Source: a virus. Taken from it: a stretch of DNA of 64,000 bases. The stretch spans positions 1-64,000 of the IMG/VR virus record IMGVR_UViG_3300025853_000044; one strand, 5' to 3'. Position numbers and translations under genes: made by a program. The notes below the pieces were generated by a model. The model was given only the letters and a program-made list of their open reading frames with translations, had not been told where the DNA came from and did not search any database. This document shows, piece after piece, positions 5,436 through 64,000 of the stretch (positions are counted from its first letter, which is position 1; each line of letters opens with the position of its first letter).

Positions 5436-5437
5436 TG

Positions 5438-7746: not shown

Positions 7747-7747
7747 T

Positions 7748-24111: not shown

Positions 24112-24620
24112 TGAACATCTTCGTACTTGACAACGACCCCGTGAAAGCGGCGCAGTACATGGACGACCAGCGAGTGAGCAAGATGATAATTGAGTCCGGC
24201 CAAATGATGCGAGCGGCTCTCGGTCGTCACGGTATGACTGAGGATGACTGTCGGCAGTTTGGCATCCTCACCAAGAGCGGAACGCCGTGGCGCATCACAC
24301 ACAAGAACCATCCTTGCACACTGTGGGCTGGCGAGTCACGCATGAACTTCATGTGGCTGGCGACCCACGCTCTTGCATTGTGTCGGGAGTTTGAGCAACG
24401 CTACCTCAAGGAACATGCTTGTCGGCAACCCATCATGCACATGATTGAGTACATGGAGCAGTACATCCCCGAAGGAGACTACACCCCATTCGCTCAAGCG
24501 ATGCCTGTGGAGTACAAGCACGACAACGCAGTGACGGCCTACCGTCGCTACTACCAAAGCAAAGACAACATCCGGTACAGGAAGACGGATGTACCCACAT
24601 GGTGGGGGGTGACGGCGTGA
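24111..24620 (+). CDS. Pyrimidine-dimer DNA glycosylase-like protein
   Basis: A 169-residue protein. The start MNIFVLDNDPVKAAQYMDDQ then RVSKMIIESGQMM, and the later THKNHPCTLWAGESRMNFMW, match a family of phage proteins often annotated as pyrimidine-dimer DNA glycosylase-like. True members cut DNA at ultraviolet damage, useful in surface waters, but the activity of this branch is uncertain. The stop of DUF932 and this start share one base (TAATG). Confidence 0.6.
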   Translation: MNIFVLDNDPVKAAQYMDDQRVSKMIIESGQMMRAALGRHGMTEDDCRQFGILTKSGTPWRITHKNHPCTLWAGESRMNFMWLATHALALCREFEQRYLKEHACRQPIMHMIEYMEQYIPEGDYTPFAQAMPVEYKHDNAVTAYRRYYQSKDNIRYRKTDVPTWWGVTA

Positions 24621-43847: not shown

Positions 43848-44188
43848 GCCACCTCAATTGCGATTTGGATTTTTAATTCATTTGCTGATGATTTAGTTAT
43901 AGGGGAAATTGTGTACCGAGCCACGGGCGTGAAATCGCTTGTATCACGGAACTGGATGTACACCTCCTTTATTTGGTCAGCAAATGTAGTGTCATAGGGT
44001 AGTTTGGCCTCAACGAGTAGAGAGGTGTCGTCCACGATGGTGATGGTGGGGGTAAGGGTGATAGCAGGGCGACCCGCCGAGCCATCGTCAGTGGTGGCTG
44101 GTGTGCCGTCAAAGCCCAAAATCACCTCGTTGATGTTGCTGGCGAGTGTGTCAAGCAACAACCTTCGCATGTAATCGCTAATCGGCAT
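43844..44188 (-). CDS. Small structural protein
   Basis: A 114-residue protein, MPISDYMRRLLLDTLASNIN, then a beta-rich body (AITLTPTITIVDDTSLLVEA). It overlaps the next upstream gene by 11 nt and the downstream one by 4 nt. It may be a tail or baseplate connector, as judged only from place and composition. Confidence 0.65.
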   Translation of the reverse strand: MPISDYMRRLLLDTLASNINEVILGFDGTPATTDDGSAGRPAITLTPTITIVDDTSLLVEAKLPYDTTFADQIKEVYIQFRDTSDFTPVARYTISPITKSSANELKIQIAIEVA

Positions 44189-45602: not shown

Positions 45603-45938
45603 TCAGCAGTTCCATCGCTTCAAGGATGCTCCCTTTGGTGTGAGTTTACCACCTTTACTGGTCGGGCCTTTGACACCCGACATGCGAGCGCAAAACGATT
45701 TACGACGCTTTGCCTTCTTTGAGCCGGGTTTGAGTTTGCTTGGTTTGGTTGTCACGGGAGGTTTGAGGTTTGCACCACTCTTACGCTTGGCGGCGGCACG
45801 ACCTTTAGCGTTCAGTCCACCTTTCTTACTGTGCTTATTTGGGTTATAACCATGAAATGGCTTACTTTTTTTGGCCTTCATTACAGCAAAGGCTAATTCA
45901 GCAGGCGAACAACAATCACAAAAATCGTAATCCATCAC
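45603..45938 (-). CDS. Small basic Cys-containing protein (DUF6321-like)
   Basis: A 111-residue protein. GGLNAKGRAAAKRKSGANLK followed by PPVT, then RRKSFCARMSGVKGP and the C-terminal SLKRWNC match a pattern I recall from marine phage proteins (DUF6321). Lys and Arg make up about a quarter, so it may bind DNA in the virion. It starts inside the end of the giant gene by a 4-nt overlap. Confidence 0.7.
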   Translation of the reverse strand: MMDYDFCDCCSPAELAFAVMKAKKSKPFHGYNPNKHSKKGGLNAKGRAAAKRKSGANLKPPVTTKPSKLKPGSKKAKRRKSFCARMSGVKGPTSKGGKLTPKGASLKRWNC

Positions 45939-48900
45939 GAAGCATCACCACTATGGTCATTTGAATTGTAGGAGACATCTCCTTTATGTCCTTTGGGATG
46001 CAGGGATTGGGAGAAACGAGGCTGGACGGTGTAATCCATGCGCTCTTCCTTGCTCTCGCCCTCTTGATGGGTGCGGCGGCGAGCGGCATCTGCACGGTAG
46101 TGTTGCAGGGTGTTTTCACTCATCACGACACGAGTAATCTCGTTGTCCAATAACGATGAATCAAAGCCCGTGGCGGCGGTGCCGATGATTTTCGGGCCTT
46201 GACTCATTGGCACAGTGTCACTTGTACTGATGTCCATGTAGTATGCGGGCGCATAAGGTGGGTTGGTGTCGGGGTTGGTGCTACGAATGTAGGAGCCTGC
46301 CGATGCTTGACCGTTGGTTGTCTCGTACACATATAGCCCGTACTTACCACCAGCGGTGGCACCGAAGTAGTTGCTACCATACTGTGGGCTTGATGAGTGC
46401 AAGTTGAGGTTGGAGCGGAACATCTCGGCATGTTGTTTGTCCAGTAAACGAACTGGGCGCAACATGTAGGAAATGCGCTTGTCGGTGAGGTTGGTACGCT
46501 GGTGCCCGTTGGTGTCGGTTTGATATGGGTTGCTGGACTTCCATTGTGAAACATTGTTTGTGAATCCGTATTTTTCCGCAAGGTAGCCTTCTACTTGTTG
46601 TCTTTCTGTTGTACTCATAGCCCGATTATACTGAATGATTTCTGCAATTTTACCTTTTAATTCAAACGAACCTACATGGCCGATACCATATGGGTCTTCA
46701 TCAGCCACATACCAAGCACCAGTGCTACTTCCTACACTAACACCTTGTAAAAATAGTTCAAAGTTAGCGTTGCTACCTGCGCCATCTCCACCTGCTATGG
46801 TTCCAGTAACCAATTCTGCTTGATTAACGACTACAGCATTACTTGGGGAGTTTACAACAGTGTAAGTAGTGTCAGCACCACCTCTCCACTGCCACTTGTC
46901 GCTTGAATCCCACCGAATAAACAACGAATGACCAGCACGGGTTACTGGGCTGTTTGCGAATGTTTCCAAAACCCCTTGAGCATTTCCATCGTCGTCATCC
47001 GACCAAGCAACGACAAAGAGTGTTACATCGGTAGTGTTTAAGCGAGCATCAAATGGTGTACTCATAATGTCTGTTCCATCACAATCTACAACTGGCATGT
47101 TGTTCACATTGGATGATGACGCAATATAGACTGGTTGTTTGGATGCAGTAGATTGTGTGAACTCAAAGCCATGCGGCCCGCTGTCTTTCCATGATGTTAC
47201 AGCCGCCCCGTCTGCCAAATCAAGGCTATCGGCTTTGAGCCACAACGCCATGCCGGATGTGGGAATGCCGCCCCATTCAGTATCGTCAATAGGTGATACG
47301 AAGTTGCGGGCTTCTGCAATGTAGGTACCGCCGAGTGGGTTGAAGTTGGAGGTATGGGAGAGTCGCATAGCACCACCCTGCGGCTGGCCGCTGAAGTCAA
47401 GGGCGGTGAGGTCGTAATGGCCAATCGTCTGCGAGCCTGCTTGCATACCACCATGCACGATAACACGCTGGCCTACACCACGGTCGGAGTGTAGGCTGTG
47501 AGCCTCGGTGTTGATGGCAATGAGGTTATCATCCACACCCTCTACATTCTCAGTGTCAAGTCCAATGCGGGGTGCACTGCGGCTTACAGCGTCTTTGTGT
47601 GGAGAGTCACCGCTCACGGTTTCTACACGGTCGCTTACCACGGCTTCCGGCTTGAGCAAGCCGTCTTCTGCGATGTCAAGGCGTGCGCTGATACCACGAG
47701 GCACCTCGTCAGCCTGCAACACATCGTTGCGAGCACGGATGTAGCCGTCGTTCATGTTCGGCTCAGCGGTGTGATGAGACAACACAACACCCGATGCGTG
47801 ATACGGCTCGTCAAGGGCTGTCAACACATCCTCGTTAAAGGCAGTAGGGTATCGCAAACCACGCCCGTGCCCGTCGTCGCCAACACGGTGAGCGTTGGTG
47901 GGGAAGTACACATCCACAAGTTCAGTAGCGTCGTTAGAGTTTACATTGTTAAGCCGTCCAGCAAAGCGTGGTATAGTAAAGCCCGTCGTGACACTGATGT
48001 TGCCCGAAGCATCTATCAACGCTTTCGTATTCATGATTGGGAAGCCACCGTTGTAGATTCTGTCAAACGGTGTTTTGTTGCCGGTGCGGTCATATTCGTA
48101 CACATCACCAGCATCCCACGCAGGGCGAATACCGAAACCACGAACAGGGTGACGGCGTACTTCTTCACCACGGGTGTTACCCCACCAGTCCACCAAATAG
48201 TACGCTACAGCCTCATCCAACTTGTAGATGCCCTTTCCTTCTCCATCTCCCCACCAATCTCGTAGCACGCCGCTTGCGTTGCGTAGTGTGCGTACAGGAC
48301 AACCGAAAGCACGAGCCATACGCATTCCATCACTGTAGCGCACCTGCCATTCGGGTTTATCCACACCGAGCATACCGGAGAAGTTGGTCTGCCGTTCCAT
48401 AATACCGAGTTGAGTGTTGGGGTATGTGCCATTGGAAAGACCGCTACCACCTGCGTATGTCCATGTTTCAGTCTCGCCTTGCACAAGTGGGCCGTGTGGA
48501 TAACCCACGCTGGTGTTTGTCCCAGTTACAGCGGCTTCTCGGAATGCACGCATACCATACAACGACCATTGTGGTTTGTTGTAGGGTTGGCGTAGGCCAA
48601 TACGATAACCGAATGGTCGGGTGCGTGTTTGTACAGGAGTGAATGTGAGCGTGCCATTCGTCACAGACCCACCCGTGGTGGACGCACTCAACTCAAAGGT
48701 CGTAGCGTTGGTGATGGATGAAACCGTGGCACTTCCCGGTATGCCTGTGCCACTTACTCCCATACCGACTACAAGTTTTGCCGTAGAATCCATGGTGATG
48801 GTCGGGTCATTGTTGTAGTCGCATGTTGCATCGGTAAACGCATCGTATGTGGATTTGACCACACCGTTGGTGACAACATACGAACCGTCATCGTCTTGGT

Positions 48901-51900
48901 CAGCCCACACCGGGCCGTCAAAGGTGTATTCTCGTGGGAAGTCCCATGAGGTAGAAACATACCCATACCCGTCAAGTCGGCTGATGAGTGGGCCACCACG
49001 ACTACCACACGGCCAGTAGTGGTTGAGATTGGTTTTGGTTGCGGCATCGGAAGCATCGGCCTGCCCACCCTGTGGGTCAAAGTTACCAGCAATTATCGGA
49101 CTACCAAAGGTGGTGTCAAGTACATCGGCTGTTAGCATACTTCCGATAGCGTGTGCCATTATGGTAGAACCAATTGGTATGGTAGCGACTATTGGTTCAA
49201 TAACAGGCATAACACCAAGTACATGATTGTCAAATACACTACCACCGTCGTCTTGTACCGTGTAAGCGATACCATCAATCATTATTTTTGTTCCACCGAC
49301 AAGTTTTGCAGTTCTGCGAGTTGTGGTGATGAGTTTATTGGGAATATCTACCGATACTACAGTAGATGGCACATTAGTTCCAACTGAGGCGTGAGCAATG
49401 ATTTCGTATGGAGGGGCCGGCGTTTTGCGGTCAAACGCAAACGGGCCGAGGCTGGCGTAGTATGCCGCATCATGGTAGTGTACAGTCTCAAAGTGTTCGG
49501 GCATACTGTTCAATGGTTTTTGGGCAACAGCACGGTCAGTCAACGGGTTGAGCCATGTACGGCTGGAATCCGAGTAGAAGGTGTGTGGTCGGCCAAGGTT
49601 GGGGTGCCATAGACACAGGAAGGCATCGGCCACATGTAGGCTGTTGGTATCTCGGCTACCCTGTAGCATCTGCGGTAAAATGCGTGTCACCATGCTGGTC
49701 TTGGAGTCTGTAAAGATGGCACCAGCAGGGCGGAAGTCGTAGGCACGGGTAAGGCGCAATTTTGTGCCAGCGGTCAGATTGCTGGTGAAAGAAGACTTGG
49801 CTGTGATGGTAAACTGCTTTGGTTTGTTCATGTTGCTTGAATCGTACCCGCTACGCTCAGTGTAAGTGTGTGTGCGTCGTACACCGTTTACATCCGTGTA
49901 TTCCAACTTGTTGCCGTAATACGGTTTCTGTGGGAAGCCACGAGCATCATCAACAGTGATTTGAGTTGTAGAATCAACGCTTACTACAGTACACACAGGA
50001 TTGAGGCTGATGTTTTCAAGCACCTCGTGGTAGATGTCGGGGTAAATGCTTGGATAACCTGCGAGTGTGATTTGACACGCTATGCTTCCTGTGCTTGCAC
50101 GAAGGAACTCGTAGTAGTTGTCAAGTCGGTGATGGTTGAGATGGCGGAACCCTGTAGCGTCAGCGTGGTCGGGGCCGTCTTTATGGACAATACTCCACCA
50201 TGGTATGTTGGTCGTCATACCCGGTGTAGCGTTATCAAACATTTGTGGTTGATATGGAAGTGAACGCTTGACAAAGGCGGGGCTTTCGGTTGCCTGTACA
50301 CCCAATGCGTTGTACAGCATCAACGGTGGGATGTTGGTGAATTGGCTACCGTGGTCGGGGTCATGGTCAAGAATCAACTCATTGACAAACACCTCACAGC
50401 CTCGTACATCGGCCATCGTAGCCTCAGCCAACACAAGACCAACAGCACCCGTGGCACTGTCGGGTTCTCGTAGGCCAATAACCAGTGCAACCTGCTGGCT
50501 GGTCAATTCATTAACCGAACCATCGGGTAGTGCTGTTGCTCCACCATTGGCGTGATAACCCATGAGTTGTGATTTGTGGATGTTAGGTTGAATGACGATT
50601 TGGTATGCTCCCACTTCACTTGGGTCGGGGAAGTGATGACGCAGGGTGTAGGTAGCGGCGGCTTCCAACACGATGGTGTGTCCACCAGCGGCATTGATGA
50701 CACCAGCCTGTCCTTCGGATGCCAGCACACCGTATCCGTCGCTACGAATCTTGGACTCAAACATCAGCGTGAAAGCCCCACCGTGTATGTCGCTTGGCCC
50801 ACTGGGTGTGGCCGTGAGCGCACCGAAAGTATGCAGGGTATCGTAACCGTGTAAATTGTTTGTGAGTGTTGTTGAGATGTCAGTCTTCAAATTGCTCATG
50901 GTTTGCTCTTCCATCAACAAGGTTTCGTGCGGTTTAACCGTAGCAGAACGGATTGCTCGGTGTTTGTTGTACAACCCTTGGTATGCAGGATGAGCGAAAT
51001 GGCCGGGGAGCATGGCCATTGTAGGGTTGACAAAGTGATGCCCCATTCTTGGTAATGCCATTGGTGTCATTTTCGGCCTTGAATAAACCGTATGACACAA
51101 CAAAGCGTTGAGGGTTAATCCTGTGATATAGGTGCTGTGTACAATGTCGGGACTGTTGCCACTCACTTCCGCATGGTCACGCAAGCGGCGTGATGCAAAG
51201 AAGCGAGTGCTACCAGCAGGGATGTAATACGAAGGTACGACCTTGAGCGTTGTGATAGATGACTTGACCAATTCGGCAAAGTCGGCATCACCTACACAAC
51301 CTGTGAAAGTAGAACTGCTGATACCCGTGAACGATGCAACTCCACCTTTATCGGTTGTGGGGTCATACAACCGTAGGAATTTGCGGCCATCACGAATAGA
51401 TTCGTTAAACAGCGAAGCGTTAGGAGCAGTGTTGACAGTGAGAGTGGTGCCGCTAAACGATACAGCCGTCAATTCAGCGTTGACTACACCACCCGCATGT
51501 GTGTAGAAAGTTGGGTGGCGGTGGCTGTGCGTGTTGCCGTTCTTCGTGATGTGGAAGAACAGTGTGCGGTCGTGCAATTCGTAGGATGTTTCAAGTGGTG
51601 CGTTGCCCGTGGCTGTTTCCCATCCTGCGTATGTCGGGTCGGGGAACGAACCTTGGCTGATGTGTTCCCAGTTGTGGTCGCTGAATGTACCACCAAGGCG
51701 TGGCCCCTTTGTATCATCAGTAAACAAATGCTTGATGCTACTGCTTGACATTGGGCGCATCATACCGCCAGTGCCCATGCTTTCGTTTTGGTAGGCTTGC
51801 AGGCGGTCAAATCCAGCACGAATGAGAAGGTTGCCGGGGATGCTATCGGGATGGGGCAGACGCACTTTGAGGTTAGGCTCTACACCACTACCTGCGGTTG

Positions 51901-54900
51901 CAGGCGCAAACCCTTCTGCGCTACGGTCGGACACGGCGTTGAAGGTGCGAATAATCGTACCGAATGGCGAGCCGCCCTCAATGATGTGGATTTGGCCCGT
52001 GTCGTCTTCAACTTGCATCTCTTCAAACTGCAATTCCTCATTGGGGATGGCCAATACATTTCGCAACTCATCGGGATGTGCGGCGGCGATTTGTGGGTGT
52101 GCCAACTCTTGCGCCTGTATGATGGGGAACATGGCACTGTTGGTTGTTTCAAACGAGAATCGGTTGATACCGTACAATTTCTCTCCCATCGTATGCGGTG
52201 TGTTACTCAAGACACGAGTGACAAATGGAACAGCACCAAGACCACGAGCATTGACGGCTGGTAACGATAGATTACCTCCATCCATACGCTTCCACACAAC
52301 ATGCTCAACGGAGAAGTTCTTGGCGGGTGAGCGTTGATTCATCTTGAAAGCGTTGGTGTCGCCAAGCCAGTAGTTGGCATCGTCGCCATATCGGTCAAGT
52401 TCAGCACTGGTACTCGTTTTGAGGTCTGTAATGAGGTTGCGCTCTACACTGGTAGCGTCTTCCAAAAAGAAACTACCGGGGCTTTCATCAAGGTCAAAGA
52501 ATAAATCACCAGTCTTTGCATAGCATGGTTCAGCGTTAAACAGTTCAATATCAGCGGCAAGAGGCGCATTGAACAAAAATGGGTCTGCTGGTATATCATC
52601 AGCAGGTAGAGACAAATTGGTCACAAGAGCCTCAATGTTTGGCCCACCGTGAGCAGGTGCAACGAACCTGTCAACACTGTGGATTCGCTCGTCCCACTGT
52701 GCAGTACCAGCAAAGGTGATGGCTGTAGCGGCGGCTACACCACCAGCAGTTTTGTTGACAACAGCCAACCAATCACCCATAGCAGTCACACCGTCACGGT
52801 CACGCTTTGCTACAAGACCCAATTCACCCTCATACGATATGACAAGGAAGGCACGACCAAAGACACCTTGTGGGTGATGAAGAGCACGAGGCACTGCATC
52901 TGCATCACCGATGTGTACGGGATTAGCGAAGTAGTCCGAGTGTTCCGCATCTGTTTTATCAGTATTATATGCAGGATTTGTATTTGTAGAAGCGTAAGTC
53001 CATGAGTAGGGTGTAGTGAGCATGGTTTCATCGTTATCTGTTCCACTTATTGGCCCACTGGCTTCGGGTGAGTTTCGCATTGGTGCGTAGTGTGGTAAAT
53101 GGCTGTATGTACTCATTACACTTGATGCTGGCCCGTAAGGTGAGAAGCCCAATTTAGCGTGCCATGCACCCAAGCCCGCACCGTACAGGTTCGTGGTGAA
53201 GGTAAGCGTACCGTTTGTCACAGCCCCACCAGTTGTGCTTGCTGATAATTCAAAGGTCGTAGCATTGGTGATTGAAACCACAAACGCACCCGCTGGTATG
53301 CCTGTTCCGCTCACCAGCATGTTTTTCTTGAGTAAAGCAGTTGAGTCCATTGTAATGGTCGTAGCGTTGTTGTAATCACAAGTCGCATCGGTAAATGATG
53401 AAGTTGTAACTTTCAACGAATTAAGGTATGAGTATCGCTCACCCGACCAGCCCATTGCACCTACGGGTCGTGTGCGGTCTATGGCATCCACAAGGCCACT
53501 AAAGTGAGAACGAGTCATGTGGTCACGAGGTGTGTCGTAAGCGTTGTTGTGGTAATGTACGCCCGACTTGCTCCACACATACAATTTAGTTGGAAGGTTT
53601 GGTGGCACAGCCGTGAGGTCAAAGTCGGGCACAGTTATACCCGCACTTTCACACCTATTGTGCCAAGTTGTCATGTCCTCAAACTGTGCTTTACCAGTAA
53701 TTTTGTTTGGTGCCAACCAAAATCGCACAGTCAGCACACCAGCCTTTTCATAAATTTCACGAGAATGATATGGAGCAAATGCAGGACAGGAATTATTTGG
53801 CGCAGTGGACGGGTGGCTTCTTCCACCCGTATCGGTACGAATCCAACCACATGCTGGTATTTGCTCTAAAACATCTCTTGTTGAACCCGCAATTGAACCT
53901 TCAATGTATGATTGTGAACTGCCACCAGTGGTAGCATTTTGATAAGAATTTGATGGGTCACCATAGTCCATTTCAATCCAACCGTAGCGGTCTTGGCGTT
54001 GAGCGTTGCTCATGCTTGGCATAAAGGTACCACCCATGGCTTTGAGTGCGCCCTTGCCGGGATTTTCGTTAATGGCTTGGCCGATGATAGTCGCTAACTC
54101 TTCACCGTTTTGACAGCGTGTGCCATCTACGACAATTATTTCACGGTCAAAGTCTGTCGCTGTTTCACCCAATGAACCAGCAAGCACGCTTTTGGCAATC
54201 ACACCCGACACACGGTAAGCCGTAGGTTGTACAGCGTTTGCAAACAGTTTACTGATTTGCAAGTCGTCCTTTTCCATGGGTGGGTTGAATGCCATTTGGT
54301 TGTCCATCCATGAACCACCGGGGTGGTAGCCACCGTCCATGTGGAAAGTCATGTCAGCACTCATAGCAATGCCGTAGTATGCCATGGCGCAATGTTGGTA
54401 GGGATGTGCTTTCTTGTAATCAGCCTCGTTGTTTGCTACCACTCTACCACTTACGGGATTCATGAAATGCTCACCGTAATGGTAGCCGTGTTCGGGTCGT
54501 TGTTTCAACCCATAACCACTCGCTCCTGTGTCGCCAATGTTTGGTGTCCCTTGTGCTGGCGACCAATTCAATGTTGTTTGCCAGTGGAAACGATTCCGTC
54601 TTGATTGGTAATTAGCATCGGGTGGGCCGTAATCGTTGTCGTTGTTGGTAATCTCGTTGGGTAGGTTCTTGCTGTGAGGTACCTTACTCCATGAGTTTCC
54701 TGTTGTGACAACATATCCGGGGTGAGGCTCTACAACACCGAGGTTGCTTGCTGTTTCATTGAATGGGAAGGCTTGACCGGGGCCGTAGATGAGGTAAGTC
54801 GTGAAATACGGCGTGGCGGTCTTGTGGTCGGTATAGCGTGCCGTTTGATGAGGCATACGCATGATGAGTGGGATTGGACGCTGGCGTACAATTCCCGCAG

Positions 54901-57900
54901 TGTAGCGTGCTGTGACATGCGAAGGTTGACCCGATGCCAAATTGGGTAGAGTTCCACTGTCAATATCGGCAGATAGCACATTGTTTTGATTGTAGGCTGG
55001 TGGGTTGATGCTACCACGATGTTGATTGAGATATGGGGTACCGGGGAAGAAAGCAAGCAGGGCGTTGCAATCCATCAACGCATACGCTGTGCTGATTTCG
55101 TTAGCGTTCTGTATGCCTGCTGTACCAGTCGGGCCGTTGGAGTATGGATGTGTGTAGAATGACGAGTAATCGTTTTGCGAACCGTCGTTGACATCCAACA
55201 CCACACCGCTAAATCCACCACCAAAGTAGAGTGGAACGCTGTGGTCGTTGCTGTCACGCCCGTTCTTGAAGTAAGTAACTGGTTCACTCTCAATGCTTCC
55301 ATACAAACGATAACCGCTGAAATCCTTGTCAGCATGAAGCATCAACAAAACATCGGCCCTATCAGCACTTGCTCCGTACAATGTATTCCATTCTTCGTTG
55401 TAATTTATTGCAACAACTTTCAGTTTGGTTGCAGAATTAGCACCTTGAACAGAAGTCACAGTAGCGAACCTGTTGCTTCCCGACCAAATGACCTTTGCAT
55501 CACCGAAAGAAACCAACTTGGTAAGGCTGTCAAATGTAGCCGCTTCTTCCCCTGCCGGAACAAGTATATGTGTCGTTGTTTCACCGGAATTTGTAGTAAA
55601 AACATCATCACTGTGGGTAAAGTCTGTAGTCACCAAGGCGTTGTCAAGAGCGGGTAAAATGTGGTCGCCGCTACGAGAAGTGTAAGTCAATCCTTTGAGG
55701 TTATTCGCCCAAGTCTTGGTAGGCACAGGGTCGTTATAGGAGTCAACAAGAATGGGTGTGGGTGTGTTGGTGTGATAACCACGGGCTTTTGTGCGAATCT
55801 GTAAGACAGTGTGGGGTAAGTAGCCGCAATCTACTTTGCGGTGATTGTCTTCAATATCAGCATCCGATACAGGTTTGTTGAAAGCCGCCGGTGCCGTGAC
55901 CGTCCATTGACTGTTTGATGACTGGTCAAGTTTTTCGTACTCACCAAATTCAAGATGTGGTGCCTCAATACCCAAGTCTCGGTGCAGTGATGCCTCAAAC
56001 ATTGTGGACAGTGGGCGTGCGCCACGCTGTGGGTTGTGGGCACGGATTCGGATGGCATCAGCGGCCACACCCCACTCTCCAAAGGTACGCCCGTCAACCG
56101 CATACATGTGTCGGCAATCAAACGGAATGCCTTCGGGTGTGTTTGGGTCGGCCATGTTGATAGCCTCGGCAGTGACAGCCGCCATCAACTCATCAGTCAT
56201 CAGCGTTGTCCAATTGATTCGTGGTGAAATAAGTGCTTTGATGATGCGGTCTGTAGATGCGTTAAACATTGACACCGCAGTATTGGTGAGAGAAGTTGCC
56301 GTAAGACCGGTCAATGAGTGAGATGCTGTAAACTCACTTCCTCTCACACCGTAGAATGTGTGAACTCCCGAATCACCAGCACTGTTCAGTTGTGTACGGC
56401 TTTCGTAAGAGATGACATTCCCCACAGTTCCCTTATCCGTTGTACCAGTCATCGGGTCAGTGATTTGAATGACACCGTTTTGACGAGGGAAACCGAGATA
56501 ACCAAGAATGTCGGGGTGGTTGCCAAGTTCTTGCCCGCTATCAAACGGCGCACCAAGTTGTACCGTAAGCGTGGTTGCACTTGCATCCCAAGAAATAGCA
56601 CAATCAATTCCAGCCGAAGGAGCATACACCCCTCGCCATTGATTCCCTCGCCAACTGTTCATCGTGACAGTAGTGACATCCAATCGCCCTGTAGCATCAC
56701 CAAAGCCAAGCATGTGCTGTCCAATGGTAAAACCACCCTTAGCCACATCCCCATCGTTAAAGTAAACGCAAATCTCATCATCAAGTGTAGAGGGTATGGT
56801 TGTCAAATCGTTGGCAAACGCTTCATCCATTTTGCGATAAATGAAACGCACACCGTAACCTTGTCCTCGGTGGTCGTTAAAGCGGAAACCGTACAATGGT
56901 GTGTCTCCTACCGCATCGTCTGTTATTTCAGCAGTGTTTACATGTCCACTGTATGAAGTGATGGCTGTAGGGGATGTGCCCGCTTTGGGTAAGCCTTCGT
57001 TGTACAACTTGTCAAACTCGTCATCACCCTTGCGCCCAAGCCCATGCTTACCAGCGATAGGTGAAAATCCCGGTACCCCCGACGCTACAAGCCCACCGAA
57101 GTTGATACGACCAGTTGCTTGTTTGCCCATTCGCAATCCCTTAACCAACGCAGTGGACGGGCTTTGTGTTTCAAACGATTCGTCGTTTACGCTGTTATGT
57201 GCGATACCACCAAGATGAGCGGAAATGTTTCGTCCCTTGGGGTTAGCCGTTTCATTACGGCGTGGGGTAATATCGTGATTACTGGTGAAAGCCTCATCCG
57301 GTTCTTCTTGTGCTACGAACTCACGCAAAGTAGAGACTGGTGCAAATGGCCTTCCATCCTTGTTAAGCGGCATAGGGGCAGGGTGCATGTTTTCACTCAG
57401 TATTTCATCGGGTTGTGCCCAAAAATTGCGGAAACGACCACCATGACCGATGAGGAATTGCGGTTGATAGGAAGATTGCCCTTTGCTGTTGTCAAGCCAC
57501 ACACAGAAGTTGCGACCCGATGCACCGGGAATAGTAGAGTGAATAACAATGCTATAGCCCTCGTTGCCGTTGATGTCTTCAACAACCCGACCCATGTGCG
57601 CCCGAACATAACCCATGTGTGAACCACGGTCATGTGAGTCAAAGGCGATGTCTCCATACCAAAAGGGAGCAGGGTCATAGGTAGAGCCTGTAGCCGCAAA
57701 ATCAGCGTTGATGTGAGCGGAGGTTGGGTCTTTGTTCGGGTCTGCTGTGTCTTGTCGCACACCAATACGAGTGAGGTCAAGCCGCTCACTTTCACCGGGG
57801 TATTGTTGTGATGGACGACGAGCATGTGTGCGACCGTTAAGCGCACCCCCTTGATTGATGAGGCGCACCATTTCTCGTGCCGCCGCCTCAATATCCGTGA

Positions 57901-60900
57901 CACCTTCCTTCACACCAACTTCACCCAAATCAAGTGTCATGCGGCGTACAAAGTCCATCTGTGTCCAATGTTTGAGGTGTTGCAAGCGAGACTCTTCATG
58001 GCTGGCAAGTTCAAGTGTAGTGTTTCTTTTCCCCTTCAAACAAAGGAATGCTGAGATAACACGAGTACCATCGGGTGTGTCAAAGAGCGTGCTTGCATCT
58101 TTCAAAGAGTGCGTAGCGGGGTTTTGAGTTGCACGGTGTAATTTTAGTTCACGCAACAACAAATCTCCTTCTTTTGCTTTGCGAATCAACTTGTGAATTT
58201 CATTTGCGTAATACACTGATGCCACAGCAGGTTGTACACGAGGAAGCACGCTATCACCCACAGTATGTGTGTTCCCTGTTTCTTCGTGATATAATCCAGT
58301 ATGTACAAAGTGTCCGTGTCCCTTACCTCGCAACAACGGATTGTTCCCAAGGCTACTTGGGTCTTGTAGGGTGTATTTGGTATCGGAGCCGGGTGTGCCG
58401 TCCACGAGGTCTTGTGATGCTGTATTGGGCACATTGTGTGCGTAGGCACTCTCAATGAATTTTGATTGTTGCGTAGAGCGCACATACTTGTTCTCCGATG
58501 GGAACCCATTGGCTACATCTATCTGCGTAGTGAAGTAATGGGGAGCACCGCCGTTGACACTGATAAGATGCTTGTCAAGTTTGATGGTGCCACCTTCGTA
58601 TGCGATGTTGCGAGTAAAACCAATTGTTGGTGTATCGGCACTGGATTGCACTTGCATGTGAAGGTCGTGAAAGGCAATGAACTCACGGTCATGTCCCACA
58701 TCAAACAAAAGGACACGAGCATTACCGTCAGTAGAAAGGTATGGGTCAATGTAGGCCACGGTGGGAGCCTGCGTTGCGTCCAGCCCCATAGCCTCGTAAT
58801 TCATCTCCACTGTCTTGTTTACATGCTGAGCAAAGTTTTGCGCTGTTTCAAGACACGAGTTGCCAATCAAGAAGTTTTCAAGCGGAATAGAATCTCTTGG
58901 ACGATTTGCCAGTGCCCCTTCGCCACCGTTAAATCCACTCCAAACAAAAGCCTCATTCATTACACCTCTACTTTTGGCGAACAACCCTTCCACAGCATGT
59001 GGATTATTGATGGTCATGTTCATCCAAACGGTATCTCCATCTCGTAGTCCACCTTGAGCGAATGGATAGACCCAACTTCGGTTGAGAATGGCATCAGCGT
59101 CATTCTGCACAACGGTGCCTACACCTATACGCACATCGTCGCCATTTGCTACAGCAACAGCATTTGCGGCCACAAGCGTGACAACTGTGTGTGCCCCGCT
59201 TGTCAAATTGGACTTTACATCTGCAACTTCACCCACATATTTTATGACATTGCTTGAATCTTCAAGGAATAACAAATCACCAGTACGAATGTTCGTACCG
59301 ATGGTGTTAGCATGAGCAAAGCGATTATTTCCGTTTGTGATGTTTAGCGTTGTGGATGCACCTGCTGATGTGGCACCTACAAATGTCCACTGCTCGGCTG
59401 ATGTAGATGGATGGAAAGTAGCCGTTTGCAACTCTTGGTTTTGCATGTTTGCGGGATTCACTATGGATTGGAAGGCGTTTCCTGCTTTTACAAGTTTAAA
59501 CTCAGCCCCAACGAAGTCTCCAACAGTCAGCGAAACATTTTTTGGTGTTGTTACCAATACAGAATTTGCACCTGCTATTGAATCCAACTTGCCTAAATAG
59601 TACACTTCAAGCGGAGTGTCTGTGCCAATTTCAGCAATGTAGGTTAAATCGCCTTGTTCAGCGATGCTGTTATTATTGCTGTCCCTTGAGTATGGAACAT
59701 CGGGAAAAAGTGAAGCATCATCAAGAATGATGTTGAATTGAAAGCCATCGGTTGCATTACCACTTATTTCTTGTACTTGCATGATGGTTGATTTTGCTCG
59801 TTTTGATATGGTGCGAGGTGCGTGTGGGTTGGCCAATGGGCCAGCCTTGAACTCCACGGCTGAAACATACTGGCGCAGGCCGTAATCAAGGTTCCCACCT
59901 TGCGTTTTCATGTTTGCCGCATCGTAATAAAATGGTGAGCGGCCTTCCAAATCCGACGATGGTAACTCAGCATCGGAGTCAATCGGCATGAGCGTTTCAT
60001 TTCGGAAGCCGCCACCTGTATGGATTTTTGCCCCAACAATGGCGTTTTGGAAGAATGTCTCGGAATACCCATCAAAATAACCTCCTGTAGCATTGATTGG
60101 AATTGACAAAAACCCATCCAACGCTGGATTATTGTCATACACAGCCCATTCTCCGCTGGTGAGAAATACCCTGCGTAGGCGGTTAATCCCCTTGAGATTA
60201 CCCACATCATCAGCCGCTACAATTGTAGGCGTAGCATCGGAAGAGTTTGTGGCATCGGGGAACATGTTTGGATGAGATACAAAAATGTGGAAGTGGTTGG
60301 TGTAAGTCGTGCCTCCTGTGCCTGTGCCTGTGCTTGTGTGTTTGTGGCTTGCAGTAGCATCTTCAATACGAAGAATGGTAGCCGACTCAATGTAATTTTG
60401 ATTATTGATAGTGTACGAATACGCTGATTTTGCGCTCTTATCCGCTGTGGCAACATCGTTTGCTCTTCTACCCACTGGTGTTGGGTTCCATGTGTGAGCG
60501 GTGTAGGTAGCATCTACATGCACTTTCATGCTGTTATCGGGGCCGGGGAAAATACCAAGGTCGGTGTGGTCAAAGAATTGCTGAGGAAATATCGGTATCT
60601 CAACCATGGCACGGGTACTGGCATATTGAGTGCCCAACTGATAGTCGTGCGTTACATCGTCAAGCGATTGGAACAAGCGGTCATTGACGGTGCTACCGTC
60701 CTGTGTCAATGAGTCGTTGTCAAAGTCTCCATCGTTGAAGATGTAAACCGAGGTCAAATAAGTGCCTGCTGAGCCTTGACTGATGATACCTGTGGCGTTA
60801 CACCACTCGTGGAAAGTCGCATACGCCGTACCTGCACCATCCAAAAATGTTCTACTGGCCACTGCATTGCTTTCACTGAAATAGAATCCTGCGCCCGTTT

Positions 60901-63900
60901 TTTCTGTGTATGCCGCACTTGCACCGTCTTCAAGGAATATGCGCCCTACCTGTGGGAAACAAATAGTTCCCCATGATTTAAGGTCGGGGGAGTCGTTGTT
61001 GAGCGGTGTGACGCTCATGCTAAAGGCACCAGTGGTGGTGACTATTCGTGCCTGTGTAGCGCAACTGCGACGAGTAGAACCCGGAAGTCGCATCAGCGGG
61101 CTTGGGTCAAAGGTAGGCTTGGTGTTCACACCGCCCTGCCCCGGCCCACCAAGCGTGACCGTGACCACGGGTGCGTTGGGTTCAATCTCCTTTACCACAT
61201 GCGAGTCGGGCGAGCCACTACCAACAGCAGAGACATTCTCATTCACGAAGGAGTCAGCGATGCCCGAAGCAGTGATAACCACCGTGGTCATGTTGGTTTC
61301 GGGGCTTTCTTGCTTGGATACTCCACGCACACGACAGCGGCTCATGAGGAACATGATGCTGGCGATGTTGGGTGAATCACCTGCGCCAAGGGAACGCACC
61401 AGCGACAATTGATTTACTCGTGATTTAACAGACGGCTGAACGAAAATCTTCGCCATGATGCCCGCTTCATCAGTAATCAAAACATTGTCAATGATGTTAA
61501 ACATCTCAAAGACACGACTTGAATGTGTGGTGGGGCCGAGGTCAAACACACCTGTGCCCGACTTGTCGGTGGTGGGCTGGCGTGTGCGTTTGCCTGCGCC
61601 TTCGTCGGTGATGGTGTCGCTTTGACTGGACGACATCGCTTCAATGGCAAGACGGTGGTACACGGATTCGTGCGTGCCTCCGTTGTGGGAACGAGCGACG
61701 GCCTTTGGTGGGCCTGCTGGTTCAGCATTGACATCGTTTGGTGGTGTGTACAATGCAGGTGTACGGCTAAGGTCAAGTTCAGTGTCGCTGTCCTGCCCGC
61801 CCGTGTTGTCACCAATCAGCGTGTGTGACTCCTGCATGAGTGAACCGTAGCCACTGATGGCGTTTGACAGGTAAATCACACCACCGGGCGAATAGAGTGT
61901 GGTGTTGGCAAGGTCGGAGGTGATGACATCCAACACCCGTGTTGTGCCAGTGAGAATGTGAGAACCTGCTGGTACGGTCTTGGTGACCATGAGCATGGGG
62001 GTGGATTGTCCCATGCTTGCTCCTGTGAGGTCTATGGCGTTGTAATGCACCTCAACATACGGGGCAAGGTCATGCGAAGTCCTCAAGGCAGGGACATGCA
62101 GAAGGGCCACACGGCTTTCGCTTTCGGGTGTAAGGTGGAAGAGGCGGTTGTTCTCGTCAATGTCGCCTGCTTCGGGCACCGGGCCTTTGAGCATAAACGG
62201 AGCATACTTGAAGCCGCTACCGCCAATGGCGATGAGTTCCTTCTTGCTGGCAGGCATACCGTTGTTGACGATGGTAGCAACGCTGGACGAGTTCTCAATG
62301 CGAGCGATGGGTGCTTCCAGTGTTTCGCTGTAGAAGTCAAGAAGTGAGTTCATTGGGAACATCTCGTCAATGTCACGAGTGTTGGAGTCATACGCCATCT
62401 GCACGATGTCAGCGGAGCCGTCAGCCTGCTGGTCAATGATGAGTTCACTGGGCTTGGGATAGCGGCGCATGTACTCGTGGCCGATGATGTGCGAGAAAGT
62501 GTGCCGCCCACTGTGTCCTACTTGGAACAGGGTGTCAAGAGTGGCTGGCCATGTCACGGCGTAAGGGTTGTTGGTGGTGTCAGTGGCCATCTGCGAAGAG
62601 TACACCAGCCCGTGATTACTGGCATTACCTTCGTCAAGCACCATCTGTCCCGTCTTGTCAAAGATTTGAGTGCCGTAGTGCGGAGGTTGGTATGGCTTAC
62701 CCGTGCCGTTGTCAATGAGCAGGTCGGCCCCGATGACCACGAAATAATTGTCCACATTGGCTGTACGGCTGTGCAAAGCACCTCGCAGACCACTTGTACC
62801 GTTGATGAAATCTACATGAATGCTGTTGAATGTCACAACACCCGTGTTTCCATTGATGCTTTCCAGTCGTACCCTTTCGGGTGGGGATTGGTTGGGCTTC
62901 TGCGTGTTGCGATTGATGGCACCGGGGTTGATGAGTAGGTTGTAAGGTGTGTGCGCTACGCTTAGGGTAGCGGCTGTGCCACTGTTAGTGTAGTAGTCCA
63001 CGACCTTGTAGTTGCCCATGCTATACGGTGTGCTTGTGAATGTGGTTGTTGGTGAAGTAGCGTCGTATGCCTTGCCGGTCAAGCGAGCGATAAGCGTCTG
63101 TGCATCAGCCGCCGTCATGGTTAGCGTTTTTGTTGTTCCATCGCTGGCCGCTGTAAATGCAGAAAACTCGTAAGTTCCCTCTACGATGTCTATTGGCTCT
63201 TCAAATCGGAAGAGTGCCGAAGTTGTATTACCCTTGATGGCCATAGATGGTTGAAGCATATTCTCATCAAATTCGTTTGAGAAGTGAATGGCTTCAATTG
63301 CACCACGGAACTCACCACCTTTACCACCGAGGTACACATGCTCAGTAGAGCGTGCAAGGCGTGTTTCGGGCGGAATGTCTTGTTGAGACACAATTTCACC
63401 GTTGACAGCCAAGAACACACGGTTCTTTTGAATACCAGCCACGACATGATATAGCGGTCGGTTGTTGAAGTTGAGGTTGGTGGCATCACCGTAGTTGCTC
63501 TTGTCGTAGCGATTGTACGAGTCGTGGATGCCGCCGTGTTCTTGCTGTGGGTACACGATACCGTCCCATCGTGTACTGGCATCGTAGGCAGTAGCCAAGC
63601 GGAAATACGATGGGCCAGCGATAGATTCAACATTAACGCTGAACACAGCGGGGCCGGGAGTATCCACGGTACCCATTTCAAGTGTAAACTGCCCCTCTCG
63701 GTGAGCAATCACACCGCCACAGTCGGGTACAACCCATGCCTCAATTACGAAGTCTCCCGCCGCCTTATCGTTGATTGTGGCAGAATCTCCAACTCCTTGC
63801 AGTGTCTTGGTCATGACCTTAGTACCACTACTGTCCTTTACACCCGTCTTGGTGAAGCGTCCTTGAGGGATAATCACTGAATCGCTCACGCCATCAAAGA

Positions 63901-63934
63901 AGAAGGCGTGACTACTGCGACCGATTGCAACCAT
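45935..63934 (-). CDS. Giant 5,999-residue structural protein with two LamG-like domains
   Basis: This single uninterrupted 18.0-kb frame is 28% of the window. The N-terminal 270 residues (HAFFFDGVSDSVIIP ... FVIEAWVVPDCGGV ... IEAIHFSNEFDENM) form a laminin-G/concanavalin-like domain. A second one lies near residues 5556-5790 (GMALWLKADSLDLADG ... AEIIQYNRAMSTTERQ), typical of sugar-binding lectin folds. A 68-residue unit is repeated near 3511-3580 and 5030-5098. The protein is low in Cys and rich in Asn, Thr, Gly and His, with no membrane segment or signal peptide. A GAGGTGA ribosome site lies just before the ATG. The most likely role is a host-recognising fibre or side-protein of the virion, which would need the viral thermosome for folding (inference). 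Confidence 0.8.
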   Translation of the reverse strand: MVAIGRSSHAFFFDGVSDSVIIPQGRFTKTGVKDSSGTKVMTKTLQGVGDSATINDKAAGDFVIEAWVVPDCGGVIAHREGQFTLEMGTVDTPGPAVFSVNVESIAGPSYFRLATAYDASTRWDGIVYPQQEHGGIHDSYNRYDKSNYGDATNLNFNNRPLYHVVAGIQKNRVFLAVNGEIVSQQDIPPETRLARSTEHVYLGGKGGEFRGAIEAIHFSNEFDENMLQPSMAIKGNTTSALFRFEEPIDIVEGTYEFSAFTAASDGTTKTLTMTAADAQTLIARLTGKAYDATSPTTTFTSTPYSMGNYKVVDYYTNSGTAATLSVAHTPYNLLINPGAINRNTQKPNQSPPERVRLESINGNTGVVTFNSIHVDFINGTSGLRGALHSRTANVDNYFVVIGADLLIDNGTGKPYQPPHYGTQIFDKTGQMVLDEGNASNHGLVYSSQMATDTTNNPYAVTWPATLDTLFQVGHSGRHTFSHIIGHEYMRRYPKPSELIIDQQADGSADIVQMAYDSNTRDIDEMFPMNSLLDFYSETLEAPIARIENSSSVATIVNNGMPASKKELIAIGGSGFKYAPFMLKGPVPEAGDIDENNRLFHLTPESESRVALLHVPALRTSHDLAPYVEVHYNAIDLTGASMGQSTPMLMVTKTVPAGSHILTGTTRVLDVITSDLANTTLYSPGGVIYLSNAISGYGSLMQESHTLIGDNTGGQDSDTELDLSRTPALYTPPNDVNAEPAGPPKAVARSHNGGTHESVYHRLAIEAMSSSQSDTITDEGAGKRTRQPTTDKSGTGVFDLGPTTHSSRVFEMFNIIDNVLITDEAGIMAKIFVQPSVKSRVNQLSLVRSLGAGDSPNIASIMFLMSRCRVRGVSKQESPETNMTTVVITASGIADSFVNENVSAVGSGSPDSHVVKEIEPNAPVVTVTLGGPGQGGVNTKPTFDPSPLMRLPGSTRRSCATQARIVTTTGAFSMSVTPLNNDSPDLKSWGTICFPQVGRIFLEDGASAAYTEKTGAGFYFSESNAVASRTFLDGAGTAYATFHEWCNATGIISQGSAGTYLTSVYIFNDGDFDNDSLTQDGSTVNDRLFQSLDDVTHDYQLGTQYASTRAMVEIPIFPQQFFDHTDLGIFPGPDNSMKVHVDATYTAHTWNPTPVGRRANDVATADKSAKSAYSYTINNQNYIESATILRIEDATASHKHTSTGTGTGGTTYTNHFHIFVSHPNMFPDATNSSDATPTIVAADDVGNLKGINRLRRVFLTSGEWAVYDNNPALDGFLSIPINATGGYFDGYSETFFQNAIVGAKIHTGGGFRNETLMPIDSDAELPSSDLEGRSPFYYDAANMKTQGGNLDYGLRQYVSAVEFKAGPLANPHAPRTISKRAKSTIMQVQEISGNATDGFQFNIILDDASLFPDVPYSRDSNNNSIAEQGDLTYIAEIGTDTPLEVYYLGKLDSIAGANSVLVTTPKNVSLTVGDFVGAEFKLVKAGNAFQSIVNPANMQNQELQTATFHPSTSAEQWTFVGATSAGASTTLNITNGNNRFAHANTIGTNIRTGDLLFLEDSSNVIKYVGEVADVKSNLTSGAHTVVTLVAANAVAVANGDDVRIGVGTVVQNDADAILNRSWVYPFAQGGLRDGDTVWMNMTINNPHAVEGLFAKSRGVMNEAFVWSGFNGGEGALANRPRDSIPLENFLIGNSCLETAQNFAQHVNKTVEMNYEAMGLDATQAPTVAYIDPYLSTDGNARVLLFDVGHDREFIAFHDLHMQVQSSADTPTIGFTRNIAYEGGTIKLDKHLISVNGGAPHYFTTQIDVANGFPSENKYVRSTQQSKFIESAYAHNVPNTASQDLVDGTPGSDTKYTLQDPSSLGNNPLLRGKGHGHFVHTGLYHEETGNTHTVGDSVLPRVQPAVASVYYANEIHKLIRKAKEGDLLLRELKLHRATQNPATHSLKDASTLFDTPDGTRVISAFLCLKGKRNTTLELASHEESRLQHLKHWTQMDFVRRMTLDLGEVGVKEGVTDIEAAAREMVRLINQGGALNGRTHARRPSQQYPGESERLDLTRIGVRQDTADPNKDPTSAHINADFAATGSTYDPAPFWYGDIAFDSHDRGSHMGYVRAHMGRVVEDINGNEGYSIVIHSTIPGASGRNFCVWLDNSKGQSSYQPQFLIGHGGRFRNFWAQPDEILSENMHPAPMPLNKDGRPFAPVSTLREFVAQEEPDEAFTSNHDITPRRNETANPKGRNISAHLGGIAHNSVNDESFETQSPSTALVKGLRMGKQATGRINFGGLVASGVPGFSPIAGKHGLGRKGDDEFDKLYNEGLPKAGTSPTAITSYSGHVNTAEITDDAVGDTPLYGFRFNDHRGQGYGVRFIYRKMDEAFANDLTTIPSTLDDEICVYFNDGDVAKGGFTIGQHMLGFGDATGRLDVTTVTMNSWRGNQWRGVYAPSAGIDCAISWDASATTLTVQLGAPFDSGQELGNHPDILGYLGFPRQNGVIQITDPMTGTTDKGTVGNVISYESRTQLNSAGDSGVHTFYGVRGSEFTASHSLTGLTATSLTNTAVSMFNASTDRIIKALISPRINWTTLMTDELMAAVTAEAINMADPNTPEGIPFDCRHMYAVDGRTFGEWGVAADAIRIRAHNPQRGARPLSTMFEASLHRDLGIEAPHLEFGEYEKLDQSSNSQWTVTAPAAFNKPVSDADIEDNHRKVDCGYLPHTVLQIRTKARGYHTNTPTPILVDSYNDPVPTKTWANNLKGLTYTSRSGDHILPALDNALVTTDFTHSDDVFTTNSGETTTHILVPAGEEAATFDSLTKLVSFGDAKVIWSGSNRFATVTSVQGANSATKLKVVAINYNEEWNTLYGASADRADVLLMLHADKDFSGYRLYGSIESEPVTYFKNGRDSNDHSVPLYFGGGFSGVVLDVNDGSQNDYSSFYTHPYSNGPTGTAGIQNANEISTAYALMDCNALLAFFPGTPYLNQHRGSINPPAYNQNNVLSADIDSGTLPNLASGQPSHVTARYTAGIVRQRPIPLIMRMPHQTARYTDHKTATPYFTTYLIYGPGQAFPFNETASNLGVVEPHPGYVVTTGNSWSKVPHSKNLPNEITNNDNDYGPPDANYQSRRNRFHWQTTLNWSPAQGTPNIGDTGASGYGLKQRPEHGYHYGEHFMNPVSGRVVANNEADYKKAHPYQHCAMAYYGIAMSADMTFHMDGGYHPGGSWMDNQMAFNPPMEKDDLQISKLFANAVQPTAYRVSGVIAKSVLAGSLGETATDFDREIIVVDGTRCQNGEELATIIGQAINENPGKGALKAMGGTFMPSMSNAQRQDRYGWIEMDYGDPSNSYQNATTGGSSQSYIEGSIAGSTRDVLEQIPACGWIRTDTGGRSHPSTAPNNSCPAFAPYHSREIYEKAGVLTVRFWLAPNKITGKAQFEDMTTWHNRCESAGITVPDFDLTAVPPNLPTKLYVWSKSGVHYHNNAYDTPRDHMTRSHFSGLVDAIDRTRPVGAMGWSGERYSYLNSLKVTTSSFTDATCDYNNATTITMDSTALLKKNMLVSGTGIPAGAFVVSITNATTFELSASTTGGAVTNGTLTFTTNLYGAGLGAWHAKLGFSPYGPASSVMSTYSHLPHYAPMRNSPEASGPISGTDNDETMLTTPYSWTYASTNTNPAYNTDKTDAEHSDYFANPVHIGDADAVPRALHHPQGVFGRAFLVISYEGELGLVAKRDRDGVTAMGDWLAVVNKTAGGVAAATAITFAGTAQWDERIHSVDRFVAPAHGGPNIEALVTNLSLPADDIPADPFLFNAPLAADIELFNAEPCYAKTGDLFFDLDESPGSFFLEDATSVERNLITDLKTSTSAELDRYGDDANYWLGDTNAFKMNQRSPAKNFSVEHVVWKRMDGGNLSLPAVNARGLGAVPFVTRVLSNTPHTMGEKLYGINRFSFETTNSAMFPIIQAQELAHPQIAAAHPDELRNVLAIPNEELQFEEMQVEDDTGQIHIIEGGSPFGTIIRTFNAVSDRSAEGFAPATAGSGVEPNLKVRLPHPDSIPGNLLIRAGFDRLQAYQNESMGTGGMMRPMSSSSIKHLFTDDTKGPRLGGTFSDHNWEHISQGSFPDPTYAGWETATGNAPLETSYELHDRTLFFHITKNGNTHSHRHPTFYTHAGGVVNAELTAVSFSGTTLTVNTAPNASLFNESIRDGRKFLRLYDPTTDKGGVASFTGISSSTFTGCVGDADFAELVKSSITTLKVVPSYYIPAGSTRFFASRRLRDHAEVSGNSPDIVHSTYITGLTLNALLCHTVYSRPKMTPMALPRMGHHFVNPTMAMLPGHFAHPAYQGLYNKHRAIRSATVKPHETLLMEEQTMSNLKTDISTTLTNNLHGYDTLHTFGALTATPSGPSDIHGGAFTLMFESKIRSDGYGVLASEGQAGVINAAGGHTIVLEAAATYTLRHHFPDPSEVGAYQIVIQPNIHKSQLMGYHANGGATALPDGSVNELTSQQVALVIGLREPDSATGAVGLVLAEATMADVRGCEVFVNELILDHDPDHGSQFTNIPPLMLYNALGVQATESPAFVKRSLPYQPQMFDNATPGMTTNIPWWSIVHKDGPDHADATGFRHLNHHRLDNYYEFLRASTGSIACQITLAGYPSIYPDIYHEVLENISLNPVCTVVSVDSTTQITVDDARGFPQKPYYGNKLEYTDVNGVRRTHTYTERSGYDSSNMNKPKQFTITAKSSFTSNLTAGTKLRLTRAYDFRPAGAIFTDSKTSMVTRILPQMLQGSRDTNSLHVADAFLCLWHPNLGRPHTFYSDSSRTWLNPLTDRAVAQKPLNSMPEHFETVHYHDAAYYASLGPFAFDRKTPAPPYEIIAHASVGTNVPSTVVSVDIPNKLITTTRRTAKLVGGTKIMIDGIAYTVQDDGGSVFDNHVLGVMPVIEPIVATIPIGSTIMAHAIGSMLTADVLDTTFGSPIIAGNFDPQGGQADASDAATKTNLNHYWPCGSRGGPLISRLDGYGYVSTSWDFPREYTFDGPVWADQDDDGSYVVTNGVVKSTYDAFTDATCDYNNDPTITMDSTAKLVVGMGVSGTGIPGSATVSSITNATTFELSASTTGGSVTNGTLTFTPVQTRTRPFGYRIGLRQPYNKPQWSLYGMRAFREAAVTGTNTSVGYPHGPLVQGETETWTYAGGSGLSNGTYPNTQLGIMERQTNFSGMLGVDKPEWQVRYSDGMRMARAFGCPVRTLRNASGVLRDWWGDGEGKGIYKLDEAVAYYLVDWWGNTRGEEVRRHPVRGFGIRPAWDAGDVYEYDRTGNKTPFDRIYNGGFPIMNTKALIDASGNISVTTGFTIPRFAGRLNNVNSNDATELVDVYFPTNAHRVGDDGHGRGLRYPTAFNEDVLTALDEPYHASGVVLSHHTAEPNMNDGYIRARNDVLQADEVPRGISARLDIAEDGLLKPEAVVSDRVETVSGDSPHKDAVSRSAPRIGLDTENVEGVDDNLIAINTEAHSLHSDRGVGQRVIVHGGMQAGSQTIGHYDLTALDFSGQPQGGAMRLSHTSNFNPLGGTYIAEARNFVSPIDDTEWGGIPTSGMALWLKADSLDLADGAAVTSWKDSGPHGFEFTQSTASKQPVYIASSSNVNNMPVVDCDGTDIMSTPFDARLNTTDVTLFVVAWSDDDDGNAQGVLETFANSPVTRAGHSLFIRWDSSDKWQWRGGADTTYTVVNSPSNAVVVNQAELVTGTIAGGDGAGSNANFELFLQGVSVGSSTGAWYVADEDPYGIGHVGSFELKGKIAEIIQYNRAMSTTERQQVEGYLAEKYGFTNNVSQWKSSNPYQTDTNGHQRTNLTDKRISYMLRPVRLLDKQHAEMFRSNLNLHSSSPQYGSNYFGATAGGKYGLYVYETTNGQASAGSYIRSTNPDTNPPYAPAYYMDISTSDTVPMSQGPKIIGTAATGFDSSLLDNEITRVVMSENTLQHYRADAARRRTHQEGESKEERMDYTVQPRFSQSLHPKGHKGDVSYNSNDHSGDAS
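48641..48845 (-). repeat. Copy 2 of a duplicated domain in the giant gene
   Basis: It encodes NNDPTITMDSTAKLVVGMGV ... SITNATTFELSASTTGGSV ... GTLTF (about residues 5030-5098), closely similar to the copy at 53196-53402. Similar NATTFxLSxxAT repeats are common in marine phage structural proteins. Confidence 0.8.
53196..53402 (-). repeat. Copy 1 of a duplicated domain in the giant gene
   Basis: It encodes NNATTITMDSTALLKKNMLV ... SITNATTFELSASTTGGAV ... GTLTF (about residues 3511-3580). The high DNA identity to 48641-48845 suggests a recent internal duplication or gene conversion. Confidence 0.8.
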
Positions 63935-63943
63935 CCATTCACC

Positions 63944-64000
63944 TCAAAATATCCAATCAATCGGTGCAAAGTTGATGGTGTAAGAATAAATCGGCTCACC
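63944..64000 (-). CDS. C-terminal end of a further minus-strand gene (partial)
   Basis: Reading leftward from the right edge, 18 codons end GEPIYSYTINFAPIDWIF then TGA at 63946-63944. The stop lies 9 nt before the ATG of the giant gene, with its ribosome site overlapping the stop. The short sequence is aromatic and strand-like, as in tail proteins. The start lies outside the window. Confidence 0.6.
   Translation of the reverse strand, partial: GEPIYSYTINFAPIDWIF

Follow-up and report, generated by a model that had tools for sequence, protein, structure and literature searches.

A single gene of 18 kb, located in the tail module of an ocean virus, encodes a protein of 5,999 residues (hereafter the giant), and this gene is real and widespread in a very common group of ocean archaeal tailed viruses. 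Its product is probably a single-chain scaffold of the tail tip or baseplate, furnished with exchangeable surface modules and with a lectin-like N-terminal domain for host contact. The window, that is, the whole stretch of DNA that was analysed, comprises the first 64 kb of a record of 95,367 bp and contains the giant as follows.

45935..63934, minus strand: giant tail protein gene, a single ATG-started frame of 5,999 aa plus stop, 650 kDa, pI 5.4

The frame accounts for 28% of the 64-kb window and 19% of the record, and its 6,000 codons include one terminal stop and no internal one. Given the base composition, 5,999 open codons would arise by chance with a probability of approximately 10^-121, and the longest open run in the other five frames across the same stretch is 256 codons. 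The initial annotation, which had been made from the sequence alone and had described an unbroken 18-kb frame covering more than a quarter of the window, was borne out in this respect. Its view that such a length is extreme for a virus of microbes holds only partly, since a cyanophage protein of 6,376 aa exists and huge-phage proteins, tentatively regarded as structural, reach 7,694 aa in genomes larger than 200 kb (PMC7162821). The giant belongs to the same size class as the latter, but it fills about a fifth of a genome of approximately 95 kb.

The make-up of the genome fits the published description of the magroviruses (PMC10768690, PMC12999244). The plus strand harbors a PolB gene (E=1.4e-40), a Cpn60/TCP-1 chaperonin gene (E=5e-124), and apparent clamp, clamp-loader, primase and ERCC4-type genes, the last four being read from sequence only, while the virion module is transcribed in the opposite direction from the minus strand, and the size lies within the 90-110 kb of the group. 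The MCP is 36% identical over 99% of its length to that of HVTV-1, an isolated tailed virus, in keeping with the Druskaviridae-related MCP of the Magrovirales; terminase, portal, MCP, major tail protein and tape measure follow each other in the order of a non-contractile tail module of the Caudoviricetes. Judged by these genes, the record appears to be a magrovirus-type tailed virus, the magroviruses being tailed viruses of Poseidoniales archaea.

The integrity of the gene is mirrored in its relatives. The IMG/VR contigs L005 and L004 carry a giant frame that is identical or different by 2 nt, and complete frames of 5,579, 5,574, 5,659 and 5,634 aa were found in diverged relatives at 80, 80, 69 and 50% identity, respectively. 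Scans of IMG/VR yielded 20 close relatives; broader profiles raised the number of matches to at least 116-119. The roughly 500 stretches positive for the MCP hint at further members of the family. Pooled over three profile searches, 82 distinct records contain the N-terminal part of the giant, and in 78 of them the frame stays open until its stop or until the contig ends, the complete frames spanning about 5,215-6,793 codons and the conserved core roughly 5,200-5,500 residues. In every 250-codon block tested the pN/pS of the giant was 0.04-0.54, which indicates purifying selection along its whole length. The remaining four records (G016, G080, G091 and G110) show breaks that look like frameshifts, three of the four having been examined; these frameshifted giants may represent either sequencing error or real decay. 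The largest member found (G021/L352) is an open frame of 6,793 codons.

When records were collected by their MCP, the giant was present in 29 of 46; the other 17 all end no more than 8.7 kb from the MCP gene and so stop short of the giant, which starts about 10.7 kb away, and it is consequently found in 29 of the 29 records that reach far enough. By profile search it is absent from HVTV-1, HCTV-1 and one 104-kb relative of HVTV-1 (MCP 64% identical). A separate observation concerns the 91,888-bp record G104/L353, whose MCP is 35% identical to that of HVTV-1 and whose first ~10 kb past the MCP hold ORFs of 851, 726 (with a LamG domain) and 525 aa and nothing that matches the giant; the record stops near the expected start of the giant, and it may be a giant-less lineage or a truncated record. 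Among cellular genomes, two short fragments of the giant gene were encountered on 4-kb contigs (L184 and L185) of the bacterial Maricaulis MAG IN14, which are probably mis-binned virus contigs. Neither a paper describing this giant nor a virion proteomics study of a magrovirus was found in the literature searched; a prior mention is possible, and the likeliest papers lay outside that search.

On the minus strand, the virion genes are arranged in the order TerL, portal, protease, MCP, major tail protein, tail assembly chaperone, tape measure, Dit-like gene and giant, the names protease, tail assembly chaperone and Dit-like being assigned from position and reading only. The giant is followed by the DUF6321 gene and by genes for proteins of 471, 114 and 396 aa. 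The features of this neighbourhood, given in window coordinates unless marked as record coordinates, are listed below.

record 75733-77112: prohead-protease-like gene
record 67472-69574: major tail protein, 700 aa, matching HVTV-1 gp128 (E=1.5e-8)
record 65119-66372: tape measure, 417 aa, matching a PHROG (E=4.8e-22) and HVTV-1 gp131 (E=2.1e-11)
record 63944-65119 (3' end = window 63944..64000), minus strand: Dit-like gene, 391 aa, directly upstream of the giant
45603..45938, minus strand: DUF6321 protein, 111 aa, PF19846 (E=2e-16)
44178..45593, minus strand: conserved 471-aa protein, hub-like by position and by a weak motif match to HVTV-1 gp133
43844..44188, minus strand: 114-aa tail-module protein, with no family match
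42657..43847, minus strand: 396-aa protein closing the tail module, with no family match

The succession of tape measure, Dit-like gene, giant, DUF6321 gene and hub-like gene is kept in the relatives, and the start of the DUF6321 gene overlaps the stop of the giant by 4 bases here as in most of them. The name of the Dit-like protein, for which no family match was obtained, rests on its position. The alignment of the 471-aa protein with HVTV-1 gp133 (hhalign E 0.0024, probability 12%) is suggestive only of a baseplate-hub-like neighbour.

LamG/ConA-like lectin domains (Laminin_G_3) are common in phage tail proteins, and the initial annotation had placed LamG folds at both ends of the giant. Both domains do possess this fold, whereas their standing is different: the N-terminal one belongs to the core, and the C-terminal one is an optional insert.

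63200..63934, minus strand: N-terminal LamG/ConA-like jelly-roll domain, residues 1-245, core
59063..59848, minus strand: largest hypervariable segment, residues 1363-1624, with identity under 60% against an average of 81% among close relatives
46553..47263, minus strand: C-terminal LamG domain, residues 5558-5794, optional insert

By sequence, the N-terminal domain gave a Pfam LamG match below the cut-off (E=0.053, 14.1 bits); its occupancy is 0.97-1.0, and it was found in the relatives that cover that part (alignment A3). An AlphaFold2 model of residues 1-1150 (m5e36651384e0), constructed from 40 relatives at a pLDDT of 70.6, presents a chain of globular beta-rich domains, and in Foldseek the first of them resembles laminin LG5 (1qu0, TMt 0.51) and the neurexin LNS domain, so that the LamG fold of the N-terminal domain is confirmed at the level of the predicted structure. 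Matches to the fold of clostridial neurotoxin binding domains were also obtained, and a toxin reading of them was rejected, only the LamG-like jelly roll being shared. Among viral models the best match was A0A1B1IU10 (UniProt/BFVD), a deposited but unnamed member of the family, which is 46% identical to residues 1-1150 across 1,182 aligned columns. For residues 4480-5550 modelling was unsuccessful (pLDDT 37.9) and its result was discarded; the modelled fold covers roughly the first 1,070 residues only.

The C-terminal LamG domain is borderline, scoring 28.2 bits against a Pfam cut-off of 27.6 within the whole frame and 22.3 bits within a 699-aa piece. It is present in the window, in L004/L005 and in L010, is replaced or absent in most others, and is missing in L012, L013, L020, L021 and L023; the idea of a conserved cap at this end was discarded, as the domain is an insert that most relatives lack. 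The approximately 5,000 residues between the two domains are indeed unassigned, as had been stated at the outset, with no convincing Pfam or PHROGs match. A PDB profile search with residues 1-2230 and 3480-5550 gave no match, nor could a solved or otherwise recognisable baseplate fold be identified in the core. Pairwise identity extends along the full chain (80% to L012 and 50% to L023) and declines in hypervariable segments at residues ~1179-1264, 1363-1624, 2759-2893, 3318-3388, 3602-3696 and 4818-4987, of which the segment 1363-1624 also serves as an insertion site for modules in other members.

These modules are small (about 45-90 aa) and beta-rich, and two copies of one type, M1, reside in the giant of the window.

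53195..53416, minus strand: M1 insert module, first copy, residues 3507-3580 (~75 aa), missing in most relatives
48638..48859, minus strand: M1 insert module, second copy, residues 5026-5099, 77% identical to the first

Both M1 copies, together with the C-terminal LamG domain, correspond to clean gaps in most relatives. A profile search of the members revealed 103 module copies of three types (66 of M1, 29 of M3 and 8 of M2) at ~24 sites, occurring in 40 of 68 non-redundant members, which are often partial; the insertion counts rest on pairwise alignments. Several sites are of mixed type, accommodating M1 or M2 at 637-657, M1 or M3 at 1843-1867, and M1, M2 or M3 at 2418-2512. Outside the giants, modules were detected in 20 major-tail-protein-like matches and in the gene that immediately precedes the giant, at the Dit-like position (L037, L160 and L045/L144); one further match comes from L133, whose giant is frameshifted, and represents the second piece of that giant. 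In the present genome the major tail protein itself carries M1 at residues 62-128 of 700. Since the modules outside the giant occur essentially only in major tail and Dit-like proteins, the giant can be argued to be an exposed component of the tail. The inserted modules are probably adhesins. M1 had no tblastn match in other phages and is therefore known here only from this virus group. M3, which is present in relatives and not in the window's own giant, was found by tblastn in 39 phage records, nearly all of them cyanophages, and the proteins listed are mostly annotated as baseplate wedge or structural, the best domain (E=2.2e-7) being located in P-HM2 gp7.

Marine T4-like cyanophages also supply the nearest known counterparts in size, giant structural or baseplate wedge proteins, namely Syn33_092 (6,376 aa; its gene lies between those for gp6 and gp9) and P-HM2 gp7 (4,454 aa), with PHROG 701 having a profile length of 6,136. 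Like the giant, they come from marine tailed viruses, are each the product of one baseplate-region gene of 13-19 kb and share the M3-type module; unlike it, they belong to contractile myoviruses of bacteria and adjoin gp6 and gp9 rather than tape-measure and Dit-like genes. No homology of the core to Syn33_092 or P-HM2 gp7 was detected with profiles A4-A8, and tblastn of both halves of the giant against 50,697 phage records returned the LamG domain only. As Syn33 and P-HM2 carry M3 in their giants, module-bearing giant proteins of the baseplate region already exist in marine bacterial viruses, and the magrovirus giant appears, on these comparisons, to be an archaeal-virus instance of such a protein with a core unrelated to theirs. 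The Druskaviridae HVTV-1 and HCTV-1 share a homologous MCP, and the tape measure and major tail protein of HVTV-1 are homologous as well; HVTV-1 gp137 possesses a LamG-like domain. In contrast, these haloviruses have proteins of about 150-1,050 aa in place of the giant, and no sequence match was found between its core and the Druskaviridae tail genes.

The preference for a tail-tip scaffold derives from the conserved placement of the gene behind tape measure and Dit-like gene, from the homology of tape measure, major tail protein and MCP to those of HVTV-1, from module inserts in common with other tail proteins and, for M3, with cyanophage gp7, and from a frame that is unbroken in 78 of 82 records, with purifying selection in every block and a lectin fold at the N-terminus. 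The chain, which begins with the LamG/ConA-like domain, would be deposited following the tape measure and the Dit-like protein, and would stand as one molecule where the related haloviruses use several proteins of about 150-1,050 aa. About two dozen of its loops would accept small beta-rich modules or, in some viruses, a whole LamG domain. These inserts, most likely situated on the outside, are gained, lost and swapped between viruses, and together with the hypervariable core segments they may make contact with the Poseidoniales host surface. What was observed is an intact and conserved gene in a syntenic position, modular insertion, and modules in common with other tail proteins; placement at the tail tip, exposure, binding to the host and stoichiometry are what we infer. 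More tentatively, and with rather less than even confidence, the magroviruses may have evolved a one-gene baseplate independently of bacterial phages, in which a docking board of ~5,500 residues replaced several tail-tip genes and a common pool of beta modules is swapped at fixed loops so as to alter which hosts are recognised; such a baseplate would be convergent on the cyanophage gp7-type giants that share module types.

The proposal of a virion protein in the initial annotation is supported by the place of the gene in the tail module and by the modules shared with major tail and Dit-like proteins, and host binding is plausible in view of the lectin fold and the swappable and hypervariable segments, although it stays an interpretation and a lectin fold alone is no demonstration of sugar binding. 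The giant fibre, which had also been suggested, acquired no positive support. One or more long side or central fibres, anchored by the N-terminus at the tail tip and binding the receptor through variable parts, would agree with the lectin folds, the hypervariable segments, the position in the tail module and a chain length that would allow a very long fibre; this is nevertheless unlikely, as neither fibre-type repeats nor collagen-like GXY runs were found, the lone internal duplication is a mobile module, the first 1,150 residues model as globular beta domains, conservation extends over the whole chain instead of being concentrated at one end, and the best precedent in size and modules is the wedge protein at the gp7 position of cyanophages. 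The surface coat of the same annotation found no evidence. A coat on the capsid or tail surface would suit modules held in common with the major tail protein, which are also compatible with a sheath or coat that covers the tail, but the gene order after the tape measure and the Dit-like gene and the lack of any sequence relation to decoration proteins (Pfam, PHROGs) make it very improbable.

That the region might comprise several proteins had been foreseen as a refutation of the single-protein reading, and split genes are refuted as a general explanation by the 78 unbroken frames among 82. A polyprotein, in which one frame is cut into several tail proteins by a viral or host protease, would recall the several genes of HVTV-1 and HCTV-1 at the place of the giant, and the virus does carry the prohead-protease-like gene; still, the parts were not seen as individual genes in any relative, breaks are confined to the four apparent frameshifts, which lie inside conserved sequence at different places, and a Pfam scan found no protease domain in the chain, so that this option is held to be improbable. 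The metagenomic origin of the record could have pointed to a chimeric assembly or an artefactual gene fusion, likewise foreseen in the initial annotation, but the same unbroken gene beside the same neighbours in 78 independent records refutes it and leaves it a negligible probability.

As a conserved, single-gene, module-accepting tail protein that occupies about a fifth of the genome, the giant is an obvious candidate for the host-recognition machine. The tail-tip scaffold reading predicts that module content tracks the type of host surface and that virion proteomics will find one chain of ~650 kDa. The sharing of modules between archaeal and cyanobacterial ocean viruses suggests a common pool of tail-surface modules. 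In four magrovirus groups Laminin_G_3 has been listed among the 'AMGs' of sporadic occurrence (PMC10160649); in contrast with that entry, the LamG domains here are parts of a tail protein and not metabolic genes, and those recorded as magrovirus auxiliary metabolic genes can be pieces of the giant.

Several other genes of the record deserve mention. Two lie outside the window. An ORF of 1,928 aa (record 77152-82938, L002/L003), which lies between the portal and protease genes of the capsid module, contains a domain of the ATP-dependent DNA ligases (PF01068; E about 3e-5, under the Pfam cut-off); it looks like a ligase embedded in a long, otherwise unassigned and apparently morphogenetic protein. 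Between terminase and portal, an ORF of 438 aa (record 86135-87451), with no Pfam match at E<=0.01, looks from its sequence like a LAGLIDADG homing endonuclease (AYTAGFVDADGSI) fused to an N-terminus of virion-module type. In the window, the plus strand harbors a 420-aa ORF (7703-8965) in which zinc-ribbon-like repeats come after a CX5R phosphatase-like motif (CAGGHGRTG), and a pyrimidine dimer DNA glycosylase (24111-24620; PF03013, E=6e-8).
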